Source of the DNA: an uncultured Thermoleophilia bacterium
Lineage (GTDB): Bacteria > Actinomycetota > Thermoleophilia > UBA2241
Assembly (NCBI GenBank): GCA_903927755.1
Contig: CAIYOD010000013.1
Coordinates: 1 to 64,000 of the forward strand
Reading direction: 5' to 3'
Length of the DNA: 64,000 bases
Notes under the pieces: generated by a model
Database searches by the model: none
Told to the model about the DNA's origin: nothing
Seen by the model: the letters and a program-made list of their open reading frames with translations, nothing else
Program-made: the position numbers and the translations under genes
Shown: piece after piece, positions 11,533 through 22,765 of the stretch
Layout of the letters: each line of letters begins with the position of its first letter
How positions within the stretch are numbered: position 1 is the stretch's first letter

Positions 11533-11892
11533 GATCTCTCCTCCTGGGTGACTTGCCTGAGAGGAGGCTACGGCCGGGGTCTCGACGGCGAATCGCCCGA
11601 GGGTGGTGGATGCGCGAGCGCGGAGGAGGGATATTCGGGCACCGCCGCGGGCCACCGTGGGGGGAGGCTACGACTACTCCCACACCCCGGCTCGTCACCC
11701 GGTGGAGGTAGACGCCGCGACGCGCCGCCGGCCGGCCGCTCCCGGTCGAGCCTGCGGCAGCGCCGGTGGCTCTACCCCGGCGGGGGTACCGCGTCCGGGC
11801 CGCAAGGCCTGCGGCCGCCGACCCCAGGCCCGCGAGGCATCTCTCTGGCACCGACGATGCCATTCCCGGCGCAGAGCGGCTATGCTTTTGCC

Positions 11893-12435
11893 ATGTGCGC
11901 ATCGGCAGCAAACGACCAGCCCGGCGACACGCGCCCGGCATCGTTCTCGGCCAAGCCCGACGGTCGCAAGCACCGTGGCCGCGGCAAGCGCGTGAGCGAG
12001 ATCCAGCCGCCGCCGCGCATCCGCGCCGGCCATCGCGTCTTCTTCCACGAGCAGGGCGAGCCGCTGTTCGGACCGGGGACCTTCGATCTGCTCGTACTGG
12101 TCGAGGAGACCGGATCGCTGCACCAGGCCGCCAAGCTCATGGGCATGTCGTACAACAAGGCGTGGCGCGCCATGCGGCAGGCGGAGGATCACCTCGGCCT
12201 CAAGCTCATGACGCGCCGCACCGGCGGGTCGGACGGCGGCGGCTCGGTACTCACGGACGACGGGCATCGCCTCATGGAGCGCTTCCGTGCGTTCCTCGAT
12301 GAGGCCGATGCGGATCTCGCCCGCCTTTATCAGAAGTACTTCGGAGACGCCTCGTTCGCCCAGCCGGAAGGCGCCTCTCCCCAGGCAGGCGGCCCCGCCG
12401 CCAGCGACGTCCCTTCGAGCGAAGACGGCGCCTGA
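11893..12435 (+). CDS. ModE-like winged-helix regulator (LysR-type HTH; no TOBE domain seen)
   Basis: FGPGTFDLLVLVEETGSLHQAAKLMGMSYNKAWRAMRQAEDHLGLKLMTRRTGGSDGGGSVLTDDG is the typical ModE N-domain. Confidence 0.85.
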   Translation: MCASAANDQPGDTRPASFSAKPDGRKHRGRGKRVSEIQPPPRIRAGHRVFFHEQGEPLFGPGTFDLLVLVEETGSLHQAAKLMGMSYNKAWRAMRQAEDHLGLKLMTRRTGGSDGGGSVLTDDGHRLMERFRAFLDEADADLARLYQKYFGDASFAQPEGASPQAGGPAASDVPSSEDGA

Positions 12436-12485: not shown

Positions 12486-13097
12486 ATGACTCCCGACCCT
12501 TGCAGAGGCAGCACGGGCGTGCCGCCTGTCCGCGGCCCGGCGGGTTCGCGCATCCTCGTGCTCACGGGGCCTTCCCGCGCCGGCAAGACGACCGTCTGCC
12601 GGCGGGTGGTCGCCGAGGCACGTTCGCGAGGTCTCAGCGTCGCCGGCGTTCTCACTGAGGACGGGACGACGAGCGACGGCGCCCGGCTGCAGTACGTGCT
12701 GGACCTGCGGACTGGGCGGCGCCGGCTGCTGGCGGTCGCGCGACCCGGCGGCTCTTCCTCACCGTCTGGTGTCCCCGACTTCGGGTGGTCGTTCGACGAG
12801 GAGGGGATGGCCTTCGGGCGGCTCGTGCTCGAGGCCTGCGCCGGCAGTGGCTGCGACTGCGACGTACTCGTGATCGATCAGCTCGGCCCGCTGGAGGTGC
12901 TGGAGGGGCGCGGCTGGACGGTGGCGTTCGACCTGATCGGCCGTGGCGGCTATGGCCTTGCCCTCGCAGTCGTCAACCCCCGGGTCCTCGATGAGGTCCG
13001 GTCCCGACTCGGCGACTGCGAGACGATCGTCGTCACCAGCGGCGACCGGGACGACCTGCCCGCGATCATCTGCTCTGCTCATCTCCCGGCCGGATAG
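12486..13097 (+). CDS. THEP1/DUF2478-like P-loop NTPase
   Basis: ILVLTGPSRAGKTTVCRRVVAEARSRGLSVAGVLTEDGTTSDGARLQYVLDLRTGRRRLLA; DVLVIDQLGPLE as Walker B. Confidence 0.7.
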   Translation: MTPDPCRGSTGVPPVRGPAGSRILVLTGPSRAGKTTVCRRVVAEARSRGLSVAGVLTEDGTTSDGARLQYVLDLRTGRRRLLAVARPGGSSSPSGVPDFGWSFDEEGMAFGRLVLEACAGSGCDCDVLVIDQLGPLEVLEGRGWTVAFDLIGRGGYGLALAVVNPRVLDEVRSRLGDCETIVVTSGDRDDLPAIICSAHLPAG

Positions 13098-13139: not shown

Positions 13140-14858
13140 TCACGCAGGTCGCGCGGCTTCCCGTTGGCCGTCATCGGTCTGGCGGGTATTTTCCTGGACC
13201 TCGCGCACGAGGATCGGGATGAACAGGTCTTCGGAGCGGAAGTCGCCGTGTTCGCCCGTGACCGCGCCGGTGGCCGCGTCCTCGGCCGCGTGCTGGCCGT
13301 GGTCGGCCACGACGATCACGCGGCCCTGCCAGCTCTCGAGCAACTCTCCGACCATTGAGTCCTGCTTCGCGATCACACGCCGCGCGGCCTCGGAGTGAGG
13401 CCCCGAGGCGTGGGCGGTGTCGTCGATCCCGTGGAGGTGGATCAGCATGAAGTCCGGCTGCCCCTGGGCGAGCCGGTCCTTCGCCGCGGCGAGAACCTCG
13501 TCGTCGGTCAGGCCGTCGCCGTCGACATCTACGTTCAGCACGGTGCTCCGCGTGAGGGCGAGGATCTGCAGGTTGCCCTCGATGAGACTGGTGGACAGGC
13601 CCCGTTCCTCCGCCCACTCGAAGATGCTCGGGCAGTCGAGCCGGTGCCTGGACCGATCGTGCACTCCCGTGCCGCTCGGATCCTGCCCGCTGACCATTGC
13701 GGCATAGGTCACCGGTGTGATCGTCGGGTAGACGGTGAGCGCCTCGCGCGCCTCGAGCGATGCCATCTCGGGGATCAGGCCCGCCTCCGCGGCGGCGAGG
13801 TACTGATCGTAGCCGAACCCGTCGAGGTAGATCACCAGTGTCTTGCCGCCGCCGGCGAGCTCCTGCCGCGCGAGCCGGTAGGCGTCGGTGATCGTCGCCC
13901 TTGGCGGATCGACGACCACGCCGGTCACGGCTCCTCGCTCGCCGCCGTCCACGAGGAGCTCTCCTGAAGGCGTCAGCGAGCAGCCGGTAGCCGGCAGCCG
14001 CAGCAGCGAGCCGTCCGCCAGGTACACGGCGATCCGCTCCGCCGGCTCGATGCCGGCGGCGGCCAAGGTGTCCGCCAGCGACATCTGTCCTGCGCCGTCC
14101 TCGGCGCCTGCGAAGGCGTCGCCGAGGGACAGGGTGCCGTTCTCTCCCGTCACCCCCTGGACGACGGCGATGGACGCGTCCGCGGCCGGCGCGCCGGCGC
14201 TGCCGCCCGCAGCAGTCCCGGACGAACAGGCCGCGGCGCCGAGGGCGACGACCACGGTGAAGGCGGCGACCGCGAGCAGCGCCGAGCCGGTCGCCGCCCG
14301 TCCGGTCGCCACACCGATGTGGTAGCGGCGGAGCGCCTTGATCACCTGCCAGGCCAGGATGCCGCCGACGCCGCCCGAAAGCGCCGCCGTGCAGAGCGTG
14401 AGCGCCATCGGGATCGGCGGCAGGCGGAAGAAGATGAAGCTCACCATGAGGGTGCCGGTGACGTTGGCCAGGATGCCCGCGAGGAAGCAGCAGCGCAGGC
14501 AGCACGCGCGGTGGCCGGTGAGCCACAGGCCGAGGTCCAGCACGATGCCCGGCAAGGTGTAGCTGATGAGCGAGATCGCCCCGTGCGAGCCGACCACGCC
14601 GGTCAGCATCACGAGCAGCGCCTGCACGAGCGCGATGAGCGTCGCCGTCCCGCGCTTGCCGACGATCCCCATGCCGACCACCAGCCACATCATGTAGAGG
14701 CCGCCGGCCAAGGCGCCGGCAGGGATGAACAGCGGCGCCGCCACGAGGTGCGCCAGCGGCACGACCACCGGCTTGACGGCGATGCCGAGCGCCGCCAGCA
14801 CGGCGATGATGACCAGGTCGCGCGTGGTGAACCCGCGCAGCGCCCGCGAGATCCTCAT
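13140..14858 (-). CDS. ECF transporter S-component fused to a linker/SUOX-like segment and a type I phosphodiesterase (alkaline phosphatase superfamily)
   Basis: N-term TTRDLVIIAVLAALGIAVKPVVVPLAHLVAAPLFIPAGALAGGLYMMWLV (S-component); C-term VIYLDGFGYDQYL, YPTITPVTYAAMVSG, HLHGIDDTAHASGPHS, VVADHGQH, GEHGDF metal-site motifs. Confidence 0.82.
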   Translation of the reverse strand: MRISRALRGFTTRDLVIIAVLAALGIAVKPVVVPLAHLVAAPLFIPAGALAGGLYMMWLVVGMGIVGKRGTATLIALVQALLVMLTGVVGSHGAISLISYTLPGIVLDLGLWLTGHRACCLRCCFLAGILANVTGTLMVSFIFFRLPPIPMALTLCTAALSGGVGGILAWQVIKALRRYHIGVATGRAATGSALLAVAAFTVVVALGAAACSSGTAAGGSAGAPAADASIAVVQGVTGENGTLSLGDAFAGAEDGAGQMSLADTLAAAGIEPAERIAVYLADGSLLRLPATGCSLTPSGELLVDGGERGAVTGVVVDPPRATITDAYRLARQELAGGGKTLVIYLDGFGYDQYLAAAEAGLIPEMASLEAREALTVYPTITPVTYAAMVSGQDPSGTGVHDRSRHRLDCPSIFEWAEERGLSTSLIEGNLQILALTRSTVLNVDVDGDGLTDDEVLAAAKDRLAQGQPDFMLIHLHGIDDTAHASGPHSEAARRVIAKQDSMVGELLESWQGRVIVVADHGQHAAEDAATGAVTGEHGDFRSEDLFIPILVREVQENTRQTDDGQREAARPA

Positions 14859-15742
14859 CAGAGCACGGTGATGGAGATGACGCTTCTGACCCAGTACTGG
14901 CGGTTGTAGTCGCCCTCGACGGCCTGGCCCATGACGAGCCGGAACGGGTGGTCGCCCGTGGACGCGACTCCGTCCTCCGACCAGGCGATGATCATCGGCA
15001 GGGTGACGCCGGGGCGGGTCTCGTCGAGGTAGTCCGCCCCCACCTGGCGCATGGAGAAGGAGGCGCTGTAGTCGTCGGCGGCGAGGATGGCGACCCTGGA
15101 GGCGGTCTGCTTGACGCCGGCCGCCTTCAGGATGTCGGTGAGGCGGACACCGACGAAGGCGTTCGTTGCCGTGGGCTCGGGCTCCTTGCCCCGTGAGAAG
15201 TAGTCGCCCGAGACCGTGCGCAGCTTCTTGAGCTGTCTGAGCGTGAAATAGGCGGTGTCGGCCACCTTGCCCTTGACCACGAGGTGGGCGGCGGTGGGGA
15301 CCGCCGACGCCGTCCGGGTCGGCTTGGGCGTCGGGGTTGGGGTACGCGTGGGCTTGCGCGTCTTCGTCGGCTTGGGCGTCGGCGTCGTGGCGGAGGCGGT
15401 GGCCCTGGCGGCCGGAGTGGAGCTGGAACGCGGCGTGGGCGTGGGAGCCGACAGAGCAACCGGCTCTGCCTGGTCGGCCGGCGCAACAGGCGTCGGCTCG
15501 GGAGTGGGTTTGGCTGCGGGAGACTCCGATGTCCCGGCCGCGGGCGTCTGCTCCACCACCGCCGCCAGCTTCTGCAGCGAAGGAGCCGGGCTCGCGGAGG
15601 CGGATGCGGCCGCCGGTTCCGCCGACTCGGGCGCCCGCCCCGCCGCCCACGCGGCGCCGGCGAACACGGCCAGCACGACGACGGCCGCGACCACCACCAC
15701 CACTCGCTCTCTCTTCATGATCCGATCCGGCGAAGCTGCCAC
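14858..15742 (-). CDS. Membrane-anchored/secreted SUOX-like (molybdopterin-oxidoreductase fold) protein with Pro/Thr-rich linker
   Basis: GTG start with GGAGG RBS; N-terminal TM; linker TPKPTKTRKPTRTPTPTPKPTRT; domain FTLRQLKKLRTVSGDYFSRG...FVGVRLTDILKAAGV...DYSASFSM...YNRQYWVRSVISITV. Confidence 0.72.
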   Translation of the reverse strand: MAASPDRIMKRERVVVVVAAVVVLAVFAGAAWAAGRAPESAEPAAASASASPAPSLQKLAAVVEQTPAAGTSESPAAKPTPEPTPVAPADQAEPVALSAPTPTPRSSSTPAARATASATTPTPKPTKTRKPTRTPTPTPKPTRTASAVPTAAHLVVKGKVADTAYFTLRQLKKLRTVSGDYFSRGKEPEPTATNAFVGVRLTDILKAAGVKQTASRVAILAADDYSASFSMRQVGADYLDETRPGVTLPMIIAWSEDGVASTGDHPFRLVMGQAVEGDYNRQYWVRSVISITVL

Positions 15743-15757
15743 GGCTGATGCCCTCCG

Positions 15758-16906
15758 TCAGCGGACGGTGACGCGGCAGGTCGCCGTCTTCCCAGTGCTC
15801 GTGCGCACGGTGACGGTGACCTTGCCCTCGCGGACGCCGGTGACCCTGCCGGCACGGTCGACGGTCGCGACCTTCGGGTTCGAGCTCTTCCACGAGATCG
15901 TGCACGTGGCTCCTGAGGGGCACAGCCGCGCCGCGAGATGGGCGCTCGAACCGGCGGAGAGCGTCTTGGTCTTCGTAAGCGTGACTCGGGTGGCCTTGAC
16001 CGCCCTGGACACCACCTTGACCGTGAAGGCCACGACGTGCGTCCCGCTGGTCGCCCGGACCACTACCGTGCCGGCCTTCTTCGCCGTCACGGTGCCCGTC
16101 TGGGCGACGGTGGCGATCGCGCCGTCGGCGCTGGTCCACACGATGGCCTCGGCGGCCGGCGCGGTGGGCTCTTGGGTCGCCACCGCGCGCAGCGCGAGTC
16201 GTGACCCCTTGGCCACGTTGGCTCGCGTCTGCGAAGCCGTCGGCGACGTCACGACAAGCCCGGCCGTCCGGGGCGCGGCGATCTCGTGGCTGCCGGCGTC
16301 GAGCACGGTCATCGAGCCGGCGGTGGAGACCATTCTGGCGGGGAAGGCCGTGTTGCCGTAGTCGCCGTTGGTGCAGATGCGGACGTAGGAGGGGTCGTAC
16401 CAGAGCGTCGCCGCCGCGGGATCCTCGGCGTTGCATCCCCGCACGGGGTCCATAGCCAGCAGGTAGTTGTTGGCGGCGTCCTGGACGTCGCCGACGAAGA
16501 GCCCAGCGGCATACCCGTCCGTGGTGGAGACCCTGAGCCTCCAGTCGCCGTCCAGGGTGATGCCGGATCTCGTCTCCAGGTCGCCGAGGACGCGCCGCAG
16601 CCAGATCCCCGTCCAGTCCTGAGGAGTCTCCTTGAGGTACGACTGGGTGACAGTGGAGCCGAGTCTCCCGACGCCGCTGACGTCCGCCCACGTGTAGGCA
16701 TAGGCCGCCCCCGCGAGTGACACGCTGAAGACCTGCGCCGTCGGCGCCGGCGTCGGTATGGGGGTCGATCCGCTCTTGGCGGCCGCGCCGCTCGCGCTCC
16801 CGAGCAGCGCAAGGCACGCCGCGCCGATGAACGCGGCGGCAAGGACCCCGCGCCTGGAGAGACTCCTGGTGCTCTCCCCTGCCCGTGTACCGTGCAGCCC
16901 GCCCAT
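15758..16906 (-). CDS. Tat-signal SUOX-like fold protein with C-terminal Big_2 (bacterial Ig-like) domains
   Basis: N-term RSLSRRGVLAAAFIGAACLALL (twin-Arg); WTGIWLRRVLGDLETRSGITLDGDWRLRVSTTDGYAAG; Big_2 motifs TSADGAIATVAQTGTVTAKKAGTVVV and WKSSNPKVATVDRAGRVTGVREGKVTVTV. Confidence 0.72.
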   Translation of the reverse strand: MGGLHGTRAGESTRSLSRRGVLAAAFIGAACLALLGSASGAAAKSGSTPIPTPAPTAQVFSVSLAGAAYAYTWADVSGVGRLGSTVTQSYLKETPQDWTGIWLRRVLGDLETRSGITLDGDWRLRVSTTDGYAAGLFVGDVQDAANNYLLAMDPVRGCNAEDPAAATLWYDPSYVRICTNGDYGNTAFPARMVSTAGSMTVLDAGSHEIAAPRTAGLVVTSPTASQTRANVAKGSRLALRAVATQEPTAPAAEAIVWTSADGAIATVAQTGTVTAKKAGTVVVRATSGTHVVAFTVKVVSRAVKATRVTLTKTKTLSAGSSAHLAARLCPSGATCTISWKSSNPKVATVDRAGRVTGVREGKVTVTVRTSTGKTATCRVTVR

Positions 16907-16967
16907 AGCTCCTCCAGCGACTTGTGTCCTCGCTCCGCGCACTGGTTGTCAGGACCCGTACCGGAAC

Positions 16968-16991
16968 CGTTATACTGCGTGAAACATAACG
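16968..16991. promoter_or_regulatory. ModE-box-like inverted repeat in divergent promoter region
   Basis: CGTTAT-N12-ATAACG, 24 bp, between divergent SUOX-like genes. Confidence 0.55.
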
Positions 16992-17042
16992 AGCGGACGC
17001 CACCGCGGTCAAGCGGCGGCGCGCGGCAGCGAAAGGACCGGG

Positions 17043-17555
17043 GTGCGAAAGGGGACACACGTAGCGATCGTCGTCGCCGTCCTCGTGGTGCTCGGCGGGG
17101 CGGTCGTCGCCCTCGCACAGGCCAACCGCTCGGACGCGACGGTCGTGGACGGGTCGGTCGCCATCACGCGCGGAGGCTCCACGCTCACGACCCTCGACAT
17201 GAAGCTGGTGCGGGCACTGCCGTCCGTGAGCGAGAAGAAGACCATCCAGTCGTCCGGCCATGCGGACGAGACGGCGGTGTTCACCGGCGTCCCGCTGCGC
17301 GTCCTCCTGGACGCCGTCGAGCCCGGCCTCCTGGACGGGGCGACCATGGTCGTGATTCGAGCCTCGGACGGGTACGTCTCGTCGCTCGCCGCCGAGGAGG
17401 CGACCGCCGACGGCGTCCTGCTCGTCTACGCCAAGGACGGCGAGAGCCTCGGCACCGCCGCGGACGGGGGCACCGGTCCGTTCCGCATCATCATTCTCAC
17501 AGACACGTACGGGAACCGCTGCACCAAGTGGGTCAACGAGATCGAGATCCGATGA
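17043..17555 (+). CDS. SUOX-like (molybdopterin-oxidoreductase fold) anchored/secreted protein, first gene of ECF operon
   Basis: N-term TM; FTGVPLRVLLDAVEPGLLDGATMVVIRASDGYVSSLAAEEA...ILTDTYGNRCTKWVNEIEI. Confidence 0.75.
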   Translation: MRKGTHVAIVVAVLVVLGGAVVALAQANRSDATVVDGSVAITRGGSTLTTLDMKLVRALPSVSEKKTIQSSGHADETAVFTGVPLRVLLDAVEPGLLDGATMVVIRASDGYVSSLAAEEATADGVLLVYAKDGESLGTAADGGTGPFRIIILTDTYGNRCTKWVNEIEIR

Positions 17556-18307
17556 GCGCGGCCGGCGGAGGCTCCGCCGCGCCGGCCGTACGCGTGAACG
17601 GACTCTCGTATGCGTACGGCGTTGCCGGGTACGTGCTGCACGACGTGAGCTTCAGCGTCCCGGCCGGCGAGACGGTGGTCGTCACCGGCTCCTCCGGGTG
17701 CGGCAAGACCACCCTGTGCCACTGCCTCACCGGCCTGGCTCCCAAGGCGCTCGGGGGCGCGATGACCGGCACCGTGAGCATCCTTGGGGACGACATCGAG
17801 CCTCTCGCCGTGCCGGCCGTCTCGAAGCGGATCGGCATGGTGTTCCAGGACCCGGACAACCAGCTCGTCATGACCACGGTGGAGGACGAGCTGGCGTTCG
17901 GGCCCGAGAACCTCGCGGTCGAGCCGGAAGAGATCCGTCGGCGGGTCGACCGCGAGCTGGGGCGGTTCGGCCTCGAGCGGTTCGCCCTCCGCTCTCCGGG
18001 AGAGCTGTCCGGCGGTGAGAAGCGCCTCGTGGCCCTCGCTGCCGTGCTCACGCTCGACCCGCCGGTGCTCATCCTCGACGAGCCGTTCGCGCACCTCGAC
18101 GAGCGCGGCCGCGACCGCGTCCGCGCGGCGGTCCTCGACCTGAGCGCGTCGGGCAGGACCCTTCTGATCGTGGAGCACGACCTGGCGCTCGTGGACTTCG
18201 CCGGCCGCTACCTGGTGCTCGAGCAGGGCCGGCTGGTCGCCGACACGGCGACCCCTCCGGCCCTCCCCGCATACGCGGCGCCACCCCGCCTCGAGGTCCC
18301 CGCTTGA
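17552..18307 (+). CDS. ECF transporter ATPase A (EcfA-like)
   Basis: Walker A GSSGCGKTT, Q-loop GMVFQDPDNQLVMTTVEDELAFGPENL (typical EcfA), LSGGEKR, ILDEPFAHLD. Confidence 0.92.
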   Translation: MSAAGGGSAAPAVRVNGLSYAYGVAGYVLHDVSFSVPAGETVVVTGSSGCGKTTLCHCLTGLAPKALGGAMTGTVSILGDDIEPLAVPAVSKRIGMVFQDPDNQLVMTTVEDELAFGPENLAVEPEEIRRRVDRELGRFGLERFALRSPGELSGGEKRLVALAAVLTLDPPVLILDEPFAHLDERGRDRVRAAVLDLSASGRTLLIVEHDLALVDFAGRYLVLEQGRLVADTATPPALPAYAAPPRLEVPA

Positions 18308-18948
18308 TCGCCGTCGAGGACGTCGGTTTCCGCTACCGCAAGGCGAGCCGGCCGGTCGTCGACGGCTTCTCGGCGGTCTTCCCCTCCGGCGCGGTGACCG
18401 CCGTCACGGGGTCCAACGGGTGCGGCAAGACGACGCTGGTCAAGCTGCTCACAGGCATCGAGCGCCCCGGCTCCGGCCGGGTTCTCGTGGACGGCGCGGA
18501 CCTGCGGCCGCTCTCGCTCGCTGAGATCGGCCGCAAGGTCGGCTGCGTCTTCCAGAACCCGGCGCGTCAGCTCTTCTGCACCTCCGTCCGTGAGGAGATG
18601 GCCTACGGCCTCCGCGCCCAAGGTCTCGACGACGCCGAGATTGCCCGACGCACCGAGCAGCAGCTCGATTTCTTCGGCCTGCTCGGTCACCTGGACGACT
18701 TCCCCCTGCACCTGAGCCACGGCGAGAAGCAGCGGCTCATGCTGGCCGTGGTGCTCGCCATGGACCCGGAGTATCTCCTGCTGGACGAGCCGACGACGGG
18801 ACTGGACCTCCCGCGACGCCGGGCGCTCGGCGAGGAACTCCGCGCACTCGCCGGCGCCGGCCGCGGCGTCGTGGTCGTCAGCCACGAGCGCGCGTTCGTC
18901 ACCGCCTACGCCGACACGGAGGTGCGCATGGGCGAGGCCTCAGTCTGA
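18304..18948 (+). CDS. ECF transporter ATPase A' (EcfA'-like)
   Basis: GSNGCGKTTLVKLLTG, VGCVFQNPARQLFCTSVREEMAYGL, LLDEPTTGLDLPRR. Confidence 0.92.
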   Translation: MIAVEDVGFRYRKASRPVVDGFSAVFPSGAVTAVTGSNGCGKTTLVKLLTGIERPGSGRVLVDGADLRPLSLAEIGRKVGCVFQNPARQLFCTSVREEMAYGLRAQGLDDAEIARRTEQQLDFFGLLGHLDDFPLHLSHGEKQRLMLAVVLAMDPEYLLLDEPTTGLDLPRRRALGEELRALAGAGRGVVVVSHERAFVTAYADTEVRMGEASV

Positions 18949-19685
18949 TGAGCCTCGCCCGCCTGGACCCGCGGCCTAAGCTGCTGTTCGTGCTCTGCGT
19001 CTCCACGCTCGCCGTGCTGTGGCGCGACCCCGCGTGGCTGGCCGCGCTCCTGGGGCTCACGATCGTCGTGCTGCTCGCCGGTGGAGTAGACCCGCGCAGC
19101 ACGTGGAGCCAGGTACGCGGCGTGCTCCAGGTGGTGGCCATCCTCTTCGTGGTGCAGTGTGTCTTCGTCCGCTCCGGAGAGCCGGTCGTCTCCGTGGCCG
19201 GCTTCACCCTGGTCACCACAGGCGGCCTCACCATGGCGCTTGGCGTGACCCTGCGGCTGCTGATCGTCGTCTGCTCGGCGCTGGTGCTCCTCACCGGTCA
19301 CGCGCGCGACTATTTGCTGGCGCTCGTCCAGTGCCGCGTGCCCTACGAGATCGCCTTCATGGTGATGACGGCGGTCCACTTCCTCCCGATCCTGCGCGAG
19401 GAGGCCCTGGACGTGTACCACGCCGTGCAGATGCGCGGCACGGAGGTCGCCAAGGCCGGCGTGCGCGAGAGAGTCGCTGTATATGCACACATCGCGCTGC
19501 CGGTGGTGGCCGGGGCGCTCAGGCGCGCCGAGCAGGTCTCTCTGGCGATGGAGGCGCGCGCCTTCCGCGCGCTGCCCCGGCGCACCTCGATGCGGCGGTT
19601 GACGCTGAGGGCCCGTGACGCGGCGAGTCTGGCCGCCGTCGCCGTGGCGACGGCGGCGGCGCTCGCCGCGCCGCACGTTCTTTGA
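18948..19685 (+). CDS. ECF transporter T-component (EcfT-like)
   Basis: DPRPKLLFVLCVSTLAVLW; conserved MEARAFRA coupling-helix motif; 5-6 TM. Confidence 0.88.
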   Translation: MSLARLDPRPKLLFVLCVSTLAVLWRDPAWLAALLGLTIVVLLAGGVDPRSTWSQVRGVLQVVAILFVVQCVFVRSGEPVVSVAGFTLVTTGGLTMALGVTLRLLIVVCSALVLLTGHARDYLLALVQCRVPYEIAFMVMTAVHFLPILREEALDVYHAVQMRGTEVAKAGVRERVAVYAHIALPVVAGALRRAEQVSLAMEARAFRALPRRTSMRRLTLRARDAASLAAVAVATAAALAAPHVL

Positions 19686-19820: not shown

Positions 19821-22553
19821 CTACTTCGCGGCGGCTCCGTGCGACTCCGCCGCCGGTTCCTTCTCCATGCGGACGGCGCAGACCTTGAACTCCGCCGTCA
19901 TCGTCACGGGATCGCCCTCGGCGTTGGTCAGCTCGTTGACCGGGGACTCCTTGAAGTGGAACGTCATGAACATCGTCCCCGGGGGCACCTTCTCCGTGAG
20001 GGTGATCCGGGTCGTGATGGAGCCGCGCCGTGAGCTCACGCGGATCAGCTCGTCCTCGACGACGCCGAGCCGCTCGGCGTCCGCCGGGTTGACCTCGGCC
20101 AGTTCGTAGGGCCGCAGCCACTCCAGGTTCTGCGAGAGCCGGGTCATGATGTTGTAGTGGTACAGCATGCGCCCGGTGGTGAGCAGCATCGGGTACTCGT
20201 CGTCGACGAGCTCCGCGGGCTCTTGGAACGGGATGCCCTGCAGCAGGCCTTTGCCGCGCGTGAACCGGCCCTCGTGCAGGAACGGTGTGCCGGGATGGTC
20301 CTCGGTCGGGACCGGCCACTGCAGGCCGACGGTCCCGAGCCGCTCGTAGGTCATGCCCGCGTACTGCGGCACCGCCGTGCGGATCTCCTCGAAGATCGCC
20401 TCCGGCGAGTCGTAGTCCCAGTCCATGCCCATGCGCTTGCCGAGCTCCAGGATGATCTCCCAGTCCGGCTTCGTGTCGCCCGGGGGCTCGACGGCCTTGC
20501 GCACGCGCTGGACGCGGCGCTCGGTGTTGGTGAACGTGCCGTCCTTCTCCGCGTACAGCGCCGCCGGCAGGAACACGTCGGCGTACTTGGCCGTCTCGGT
20601 CATGAAGATGTTCTGCACCACGAGGAAGTCGAGGTTCTCGAGCGCCTTGCGCACGTGGTTGGCGTCGGCGTCGGTGAGCGCCGGATCCTCGCCCATGATG
20701 AACATCGCCTTGAGCGTGCCGTGCACGGCGAGCTCGAACATCTCGGGGATGCGCAGGCCCATGTCCTGCGGCATCTGCACGCCGTAGGCCTCGCTGAACT
20801 TCTTCTGCGCCTCGAAGTCGAGCACGCTCGGGTAGCCCGGGAAGGAGTTGGGCAGCGCGCCCATGTCGCACGAGCCCTGCACGTTGTTCTGGCCGCGCAT
20901 GGGGTTCACGCCCGCGTTCGGGAAGCCGATGTGGCCGGTGACCATGCCGAGGTTGGCGAGGTTCATCACGTTGGCCGTGCCGACGGTGTGCTCGGTGATG
21001 CCGAGTGTGTAGAAGATGCCGGCCTTGCGCGTCGTCGCGTAGAGCTCCGCCGCCGCGACGATCGTCTCCACCGGCACCCCGGTGATCTCCGCGGCGCGCT
21101 CCGCCGGGTAGTCCTTGACGGTCGCCCAGAGATCGTCGAAGCCCTCGGTGCGCTCGTCGATGTATTCCTTGGCGTGCCAGCCGTTGCTGATGATGGTGTG
21201 CAGCATGCCGTTGACAAGCGCGTTGTCCGTGCCGGGCTTGAGCCGCAGCCAGAGGTGCGCGTGCTCGGCGAGCTCGGTGCGTCGCGGGTCGACGACGATG
21301 AGCTTGGCGCCGCGCAGATGTGCCTGCTTCATCTTGTTGCCGATGATCGGGTGCGCCTCGGTGGCGTTGGACCCGATGATGAACAGCACGTCGTTGCCGA
21401 CGATGTCGGCGATCGAGTTGGTCATAGCACCTGAACCCAGCGTGGTCGCCAGACCGGCGACCGTTGGAGCGTGTCAGGTACGGGCGCAGTGATCTATGGA
21501 GTTCGTATTGAGGCCCGCCCGCGTGAGGCGCTGCAGCAGGTAGTTCTCCTCGTTGGTGCAGCGCGCCGAGCTGAGCACGCCCACGGAGAGGTTGCCGTGC
21601 TCGCCGCGGATCTCGAGGAGCCGCCCGGCGACCAGCTCGAGGGCCTCGTCCCAGGTCGCCTTCTCCCAGACGCCGTCCTTCTTGATCAGCGGCGTGGTGA
21701 TGCGGTCCGGGCTGTAGATGAGGTCGGTGTGGAAGCGGCCCTTGACGCAGAGCGAGCCCTGGTTGGCCGGCGCGTCGTAGGCGGCGGTGACGCCGACGAT
21801 CTTGTCGCCGGCGACGTTGAGGTCGAAGTTGCAGCCGACGCCGCAGAACGGGCACGTGGTGCGGACCTTCTTGCGGTCCCACGTGCGCACGCCCTTGATC
21901 TGCTTGTTGGCGATCGCGCCAGTTGGGCAGATGTCGGCACACTGGCCGCAGAAGCGGCAGAAGTCCGACGCGAGCGGATTGTCGAACGAGGCGGCGATCT
22001 GCGACTCGAAGCCGCGCTCGGTGAAGTCGATGGCGTTGGTGACCTGTACCTCCGCGCAGACGCGCACGCACTTGCCGCAGAGGATGCACTTGTTCATGTC
22101 CCGCTCGATCATCGGGTTGTCGCTCTCGATCGGCAGCTGACGCTTGTCGCCCTCGAACGTGCTCGCCTCGACGCCGTAGCGGTAGCAGTAGTCCTGGAGG
22201 GTGCAGCCGCCCGACTGCTCGCAGGTGATGCAGCCCTGCGGGTGGTCGGAGAGGAGCAGGTCGAGGATGAGCGTGCGCGCCTCGATGACCGCCTGCGACT
22301 CGGTCTGGAGGACCATGCCGTCGAGCAGTTCCGTGGCGCACGCCGGCATGAGGTTGGGCCGGCCCTCCACCTCGACCACGCACAGCCGGCAGGACGCGGC
22401 CGGGCTGAGCGTCTCGTGGTGACACAGGGTCGGGATGTCGATGCCGAGGTCGCGTGCGGCGTCGAGGATGGTCGTGCCGGCAGGCACCGTCACCTCGCGG
22501 CCGTCGATGGTCGCCTGGATGGTCGCCGTCTCTGCGCCTGCAGGTCCGGTCAT
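19821..22553 (-). CDS. fdhA: Selenocysteine-containing formate dehydrogenase alpha subunit with NuoG-like N-terminal Fe-S domains (UGA=Sec at 21474-21476)
   Basis: The two track ORFs (21474-22619 and 19821-21425) join in the same frame through TGA: ...[52 protein letters not shown]...; 2Fe-2S and 4Fe-4S motifs CRLCVVEVEG, CILCGKCVRVC, CRFCGQCADICPTGA, CPFCGVGC; GGAGG RBS before ATG at 22553. Confidence 0.9.
21444..21462 (-). promoter_or_regulatory. SECIS-like hairpin 11 nt downstream of the UGA codon
   Basis: mRNA GGUCGCC-GGUCU-GGCGACC, perfect 7-bp stem with 5-nt GGUCU loop. Confidence 0.8.
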
Positions 22554-22765
22554 GCCGCCTCCGTTCGCTTGCTCCACTGCTGCGTGATGGGCCGCACCCT
22601 GCGCGGCCCGAGCCTCCACTGCGGCGTCGCGCGGTCAGGAGTGCGCGCCGCCGCCTCTACGGACGGTCCCCCCCGCGCGAACCGGGAGGGAGACCGAGTG
22701 TACAACGAGGCGGCGAGGCGGCGAAAGCCGGGCGCCTGCGTGCGGCAGCGCCCGTCCGCGCGACC

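Follow-up and report, generated by a model that had tools for sequence, protein, structure and literature searches.

Within a 64,000-nucleotide stretch of DNA from an uncultured Thermoleophilia bacterium (GenBank assembly GCA_903927755.1, contig CAIYOD010000013.1, positions 1 to 64,000; hereafter the window), two divergent operons between positions 13,140 and 19,685 probably encode a dedicated group I energy-coupling factor (ECF) importer that would salvage the pterin moiety, molybdopterin (MPT), of the molybdenum/tungsten (Mo/W) pterin cofactor. Judging from computational evidence, we put the probability of this reading at about 0.7. The cofactor is generally regarded as made by each cell for itself, because its free form is labile. 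By all features tested the cassette appears to be an ECF transporter, and neither its cargo class nor its accessory set was found described. The preliminary description of this locus likewise knew of no ECF system of such composition. A literature search found no published ECF importer for the Mo/W pterin cofactor and no description of a bacterial importer; PMC9674144, PMC13119186 and PMC3766115 describe no such ECF system. A nematode is reported to take up the cofactor from its diet (PMC9793310). If true, our reading would provide a transport route for the cofactor, explain how aldehyde ferredoxin oxidoreductase (AOR) and formate dehydrogenase operate in anaerobes without MoaA and MoaC, give many Cys-less SUOX-like proteins and orphan ECF S-components a function, and predict cofactor cross-feeding in anaerobic communities.

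The divergent cassette and its relatives

The genes of both operons were confirmed from the open reading frames (ORFs) and translations of the window, with the following layout:

13140-14858, minus strand: ECF S-component fused to a nucleotide pyrophosphatase/phosphodiesterase (NPP)-type phosphodiesterase (PF09819, E=2e-16; PF01663, E=2e-17)
14858-15742, minus strand: membrane-anchored SUOX-like protein with a Pro/Thr-rich stalk and no Cys (PF00174, E=3.5e-6; local SUOX hidden Markov model, HMM)
15758-16906, minus strand: secreted protein with a twin-arginine-like (Tat) signal, a weak SUOX-like domain and two Big_2 domains (Big_2, E=3.8e-21)
16907-17042, no strand: intergenic region common to both divergent operons (from the gene coordinates; no Rfam match)
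17043-17555, plus strand: anchored SUOX-like (PruR-like) domain protein (PF00174, E=3.6e-14; structure model with a predicted local distance difference test score, pLDDT, of 90)
17552-18307, plus strand: EcfA ATPase (PF00005; best model TIGR04520, 190 bits, below its cut-off)
18304-18948, plus strand: EcfA' ATPase (PF00005; best model TIGR04521, 158 bits, below its cut-off)
18948-19685, plus strand: EcfT transmembrane coupling protein, CbiQ-type (PF02361, E=8e-28)

Successive genes of the plus operon overlap by 4, 4 and 1 nt, and the final two genes of the minus operon by 1 nt. The coordinates, together with Pfam and NCBIfam matches, thus bear out the two divergent operons, gene content and overlaps of the preliminary description, and the S-component/phosphodiesterase fusion that it had described is confirmed by the presence of PF09819 and PF01663 in one gene. 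The locus contains the parts that define a group I ECF transporter, namely an S-component, an EcfT and two EcfA-type ATPases (PF09819, PF02361 and two PF00005 genes), and this dedicated module is co-encoded with its S-component, in adjoining divergent operons in the window and in a single operon in L007 as well as most other relatives.

The gene set recurs in dozens of genomes, with many anaerobes among the carriers. For example, a Bacillota metagenome-assembled genome (locus L007) carries on one strand a collinear array of a SUOX-like gene, the S-component/phosphodiesterase fusion, an anchored SUOX gene, EcfA, EcfA', EcfT and MobB. Because the window cassette is collinear with this array, fusion included, and because the set is so often repeated, the arrangement is not due to chance. 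In f12, a family of the window's own phylum, the S-component and phosphodiesterase are separate neighbours; an anchored SUOX gene comes next, then the ECF genes, MobB and a gene for a small kinase of APH/RIO-like type, and in two genomes of this family MoeA shares a contig with the cassette. Profile searches showed that a pattern-based scan of genome contigs, which had returned one relative only, was insensitive: the S-component profile matched 65 of 399 genomes from the phylum of L007, about 25 of them very closely. Among 36 annotated Bacillota loci with a clear S-component, SUOX-like genes were present in 31, each of the ECF genes in 29-30, MobB in 26, a small APH-like kinase in 17 and a phosphodiesterase in 14. 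Therefore, the association of the S-component with SUOX-like genes that the preliminary description saw in one place is a conserved one. MobB follows EcfT in most relative loci, and genes for ModE-like regulators, MoeA, THEP1 NTPases and TupABC-type transporters are repeatedly found near the relative cassettes.

Cofactor synthesis, cofactor enzymes and riboswitches

The distribution of the cassette argues for a link to cofactor supply. The search for MoaA (TIGR02666) covered first 37 and later 80 genomes, and MoaC, enzymes using the bis-molybdopterin guanine dinucleotide (bis-MGD) form of the cofactor (PF01568) and AOR (PF02730) were searched in one set of 80, throughout which MoaA and MoaC agree in presence. 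Twenty-one genomes contain the cassette and neither MoaA nor MoaC, and every one of these keeps at least one Mo/W-pterin enzyme (bis-MGD or AOR), compared with 8/25 of the genomes that lack the cassette as well as MoaA/MoaC (seven from f12 and one from Bacillota; Fisher p=9e-7 for all genomes together and 1.5e-7 within Bacillota, not corrected for kinship). Furthermore, the S-component tree implies at least nine changes of MoaA status, four of which are forced by well-supported branches. The contrast between cassette and MoaA is weak in f12 alone and becomes strong only when Mo/W enzymes are taken as a condition and Bacillota are added. Many of the surveyed genomes are fragmented or incomplete. 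Two of the 21 MoaA-less carriers (G522 and G739) look like single-contig assemblies; in G725, G710, G756 and G777 the S-component match alone was seen, and in G214 a contig end cuts the cassette before the S-component. MoaE was also considered as a marker and rejected, as the genomes of f12 lack it even when they have MoaA. In cells lacking MoaA and MoaC, the cassette would be the sole cofactor source detected.

Riboswitches point in the same direction. The molybdenum cofactor (Moco) riboswitch RF01055 accompanies the cassette operon in 20 of the 43 relative loci scanned, with scores of 42-78 bits (gathering score 36) and mostly 20-120 nt ahead of the first cassette gene. Twelve of these 20 loci come from MoaA-less genomes: L007, which has the gene fusion of the window, and 11 further loci. 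The scanned relatives yielded no thiamine pyrophosphate (TPP) riboswitch. The P3 stem is missing in all five RF01055 alignments shown, and the Moco RNA type lacking P3 has been associated with the tungsten cofactor (Tuco) (PMC2408646). In S. wolfei, RNAs of this P3-lacking type were reported beside genes annotated as possible sulphite oxidases and beside an operon of seven transport and unknown genes (PMC2408646), which is possibly an earlier sighting of this cassette.

Such a setting would also suit an ECF importer of tungstate or molybdate oxyanions, in which the S-component takes up the metal and an extracellular metal-pterin is the target of the SUOX-like proteins and the phosphodiesterase, unless these have another role. 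ModE-like or riboswitch regulation and MobB/MoeA neighbours are compatible with a metal transporter, the invariant Lys and frequent Arg/His of the S-component could bind an anion, and a PF13531-type metal-binding protein was not found in the MoaA-less genome G427. However, TupABC-type tungstate genes adjoin the cassette in three genomes (L114, in which TupA scores 230 bits with family models, and L126 and L138, by sequence), in L126 with a riboswitch of their own, and the presence of such separate genes makes an oxyanion a less likely ECF cargo. Oxyanion import would also leave unexplained the loss of MoaA/MoaC from carriers of Mo/W enzymes, the pyrophosphatase and the pterin-binding folds, and we regard it as improbable. 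The known metal carriers ModABC, WtpABC and TupABC resemble the cassette in their regulatory context (Moco riboswitch, ModE) and are sometimes adjacent to it, but their architecture, a binding protein plus a BPD_transp_1 permease, is unrelated; according to Pfam, neither of these components is among the cassette genes of the window. Thus, the preliminary description, which had offered a Moco-like compound, a pterin or an oxyanion as cargo, fares well in its cofactor and pterin branch, given the riboswitches, the MobB and MoeA genes in operons of relatives, the Mo/W enzymes without MoaA/MoaC and the PruR-like SUOX domains, and poorly in its oxyanion branch, given the neighbouring TupABC genes.

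Component proteins and the proposed salvage route

The S-component occupies residues 1-180 of the 13140-14858 product and is of the YkoE (PF09819) type; a PDB sequence search with its profile gave no match. We mapped its residues onto the YkoE structure 5EDL by way of L048, one of the f30 S-component matches (L048-L050), which come from ordinary YkoE-like transporters lacking SUOX genes and which formed the outgroup. In YkoE, thiamine is held by Trp49, Glu77 and Gln95 (PMC5037267). Across 42 cassette S-components these are replaced by Tyr (Y55), by Val, Ile, Met or Ala (V83) and by Pro (P103), respectively. By Pfam name the S-component therefore does fall in a known vitamin family, as the preliminary description had allowed might count against it, but at the three main thiamine-coordinating positions the residues are different. 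Invariant instead are K29, Q79, Y100, P103 and N132, with R/K145 in most; of these, K29, Y100, P103 and mostly R/K145 are family-wide and were not seen in the YkoE-like outgroup. YkoEDC of Bacillus subtilis resembles the cassette in its group I organisation, a single locus with a PF09819 S-component, an EcfT of its own and a pair of ATPases, but differs from it in three further respects: an ectophosphodiesterase is joined to the cassette S-component by fusion or linkage, SUOX-like capture proteins are added, and relatives of the window cassette have a Moco riboswitch in place of a TPP riboswitch.

These data bear on whether the cassette transports another pterin (monapterin, folate or a folate precursor), or thiamine or hydroxymethylpyrimidine as YkoEDC does. 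PF09819 membership would fit, as would the preference of PruR for tetrahydromonapterin (PMC13259868) and, in one genome, G372, folate genes (folE, folP and folB-folK, by sequence) that flank two broken halves of a cassette region (L042/L043). Nevertheless, the riboswitch class is Moco rather than tetrahydrofolate (THF) or TPP, the partners are MobB and MoeA, the thiamine-coordinating residues are replaced and the cassette correlates with MoaA loss and Mo/W enzymes, so that we consider such a cargo very unlikely.

In the structure model of the fusion, the S-component is followed by a hydrophobic seventh helix (about residues 190-211), and this by a short beta-rich stretch and the phosphodiesterase (about residues 320-550). 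Because the phosphodiesterase comes after this helix in the model, it would lie outside the cell. Foldseek matched the model to the NPP fold of ENPP1, ENPP3 and Xac NPP (PF01663), and the set of bimetal ligands and the Thr nucleophile is complete, with D346, T381, D479, H483, D519, H520 and H537 conserved in the aligned phosphodiesterases. The cassette enzyme thus shares the fold and all metal and nucleophile residues of these proteins, but differs in being tethered to an S-component or membrane anchor within a transport operon.

The preliminary description counted three SUOX-like proteins. Two of these, 17043-17555 and 14858-15742, hold up, and the SUOX-like part of 15758-16906 is marginal (E about 0.003-0.008 with the local family HMM). 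The fold is evident for 17043-17555, the one protein of the three compared structurally, from PF00174 and from Foldseek, which placed PruR pterin-binding proteins and sulfite dehydrogenases as the best PDB matches; the SUOX-like family profile also retrieves PruR entries from the PDB by sequence. PruR has a SUOX fold without Cys and binds pterins in their reduced form (PMC13259868). Likewise, the Mo-ligating Cys is missing from the cassette SUOX-like domains: 14858-15742 contains no Cys, 17043-17555 has a single C-terminal one, and none is conserved across 24 aligned relatives. In the same alignment a DGY motif is nearly invariant and aligns with the NDY of PruR, which contains the conserved pocket Tyr, and a Trp that may or may not correspond to the pocket Trp of PruR is found near the C-terminus in many, but not all, copies. 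The cassette domains therefore resemble PruR (PDB 7KOS, 7KOU, 7KOM and 7RKB) as small secreted SUOX folds, but whereas PruR signals with a DcpA/DTB receptor, they are anchored, often multicopy and partnered with an ECF importer; neither the window locus nor any of the annotated cassette operons contains a DcpA/DTB receptor gene. With the sulfite oxidase-family molybdoenzymes SorA, SoxC and YedY they have the fold and family profile (PF00174) in common, but they are short, lack the Cys ligand and have no redox partners, and they are not expected to be catalytic molybdoenzymes.

The state of the cargo is a related question. Import of the intact metallated cofactor (Moco or Tuco), whose metal form would then be bound by the SUOX-like domains, has in its favour that SUOX folds natively hold metal-MPT, that trimming of MGD outside the cell would yield metal-MPT, and that the PF13531-type protein is missing from G427. 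The domains have no Cys ligand, however, and the PruR pocket is reported to be too small for Moco (PMC13259868). In addition, MoeA is retained beside the cassette in the MoaA-less genomes G372 and G330, which suggests that metal is inserted after import. Uptake of the metallated form is, in our estimation, rather unlikely; the retained MoeA tentatively favours a metal-free cargo.

As for how a salvage importer of the pterin moiety might work, the anchored extracellular Cys-less SUOX-like domains would, by analogy with PruR, capture the pterin, and the phosphodiesterase would cleave the pyrophosphate of an MGD- or molybdopterin cytosine dinucleotide (MCD)-type dinucleotide beside the binding site, giving molybdopterin and a nucleoside monophosphate (NMP). 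Both roles had been suggested in the preliminary description. The remodelled YkoE pocket may then bind molybdopterin or a close form of it, and EcfT-EcfA-EcfA' would drive uptake, as is established for ECF transporters in general. Once inside, MoeA would insert Mo or W and MobB/MobA would rebuild the dinucleotide, and the small APH-like kinase of many relatives might, more speculatively, re-phosphorylate a dephospho-pterin. In many relatives a Moco/Tuco riboswitch would control the operon; in the window a ModE-like regulator adjoins the cassette. The complete chain, from MGD/MCD hydrolysis outside the cell through SUOX capture, ECF import of (dephospho-)molybdopterin and kinase re-phosphorylation to MoeA re-metallation under riboswitch control, is a tentative proposal to which we give somewhat short of even odds. 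If it is true, many anaerobes are molybdopterin auxotrophs that rely on their neighbours, and the cofactor is a vitamin shared within anaerobic communities.

Several observations weigh against salvage of the cofactor's pterin. Free Moco and MPT are labile. The genome of the window has MoaA, MoaC and MoaE, and its S-component clade was seen in MoaA-positive genomes only, so that a function at the window has to be extrapolated from sister clades and L007, the latter having the fusion in common with it; in a genome able to make the cofactor, the cassette would be a salvage or backup route. Neither a Moco nor a TPP riboswitch was detected in the window with Rfam, and MobB and the kinase are absent from its operons. 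AOR genes occur without MoaA/MoaC and without a detected cassette in G104, G063 and G447, the first two rated 98% complete, which indicates that other explanations of MoaA absence exist. The reportedly small PruR pocket noted above is more in keeping with a small pterin than with the complete cofactor. Finally, single genomes contain two paralogous S-component cassettes (L119/L138 in G805, L132/L139 in G758 and L128/L152 in G811), in each case a canonical cassette with MobB alongside one of a different subtype, and these subtypes may therefore differ in cargo.

Flanking genes and divergent loci

The genes on either side of the cassette in the window are as follows:

11548-12435, plus strand: ModE-type helix-turn-helix (HTH) regulator, N-terminal start uncertain, HTH at residues 175-249 (TIGR00637, E=1e-17)
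12486-13097, plus strand: THEP1/NTPase_1-type P-loop NTPase with weak MobB/DUF2478 similarity (PF03266, E=1.6e-14)
19821-22619, minus strand: formate dehydrogenase alpha-type selenoprotein (PF00384/PF01568; TIGR01591/NuoG models)

These flanks, which the preliminary description had left aside, fit a Mo/W theme. The NTPase gene is convergent with the S-component gene, and an NTPase of this type also adjoins the cassette in L138, while ModE-like genes lie close to relative cassettes L114 and L123. The formate dehydrogenase, a Mo/W-bisMGD enzyme, adjoins the plus operon. Its gene has an in-frame TGA at residue 382 (DHCART-U-HAPTVAGLA) and a SECIS_3 match at 21421-21479, and a plain ORF list cuts it into two.

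Divergent or decayed loci were also encountered. In G077, whose MoaA gene is intact, a decayed cassette remnant (L047, contig C27:16123-16316) consists of S-component fragments with a stop. Window-family relatives L008 (5161-6162, 8031-9123) and L010 (6477-7052) encode a diverged S-component-like protein beside a secreted protein of SUOX-like appearance, as well as a regulator combining an ArsR-type HTH with a PBP_like domain (PF12727) that resembles the C-terminus of a MoeA-type protein. The S-component relatives L142, L147, L148 and L149 occur with MobB, and sometimes an APH-like kinase, with no ECF module or SUOX genes nearby. More distant S-component relatives, L146 (9212-14395) and L150 (5629-9021), are accompanied by genes resembling those of ModE, THEP1 and methyltransferases and, on visual inspection, by genes for molybdenum hydroxylases and their maturation.

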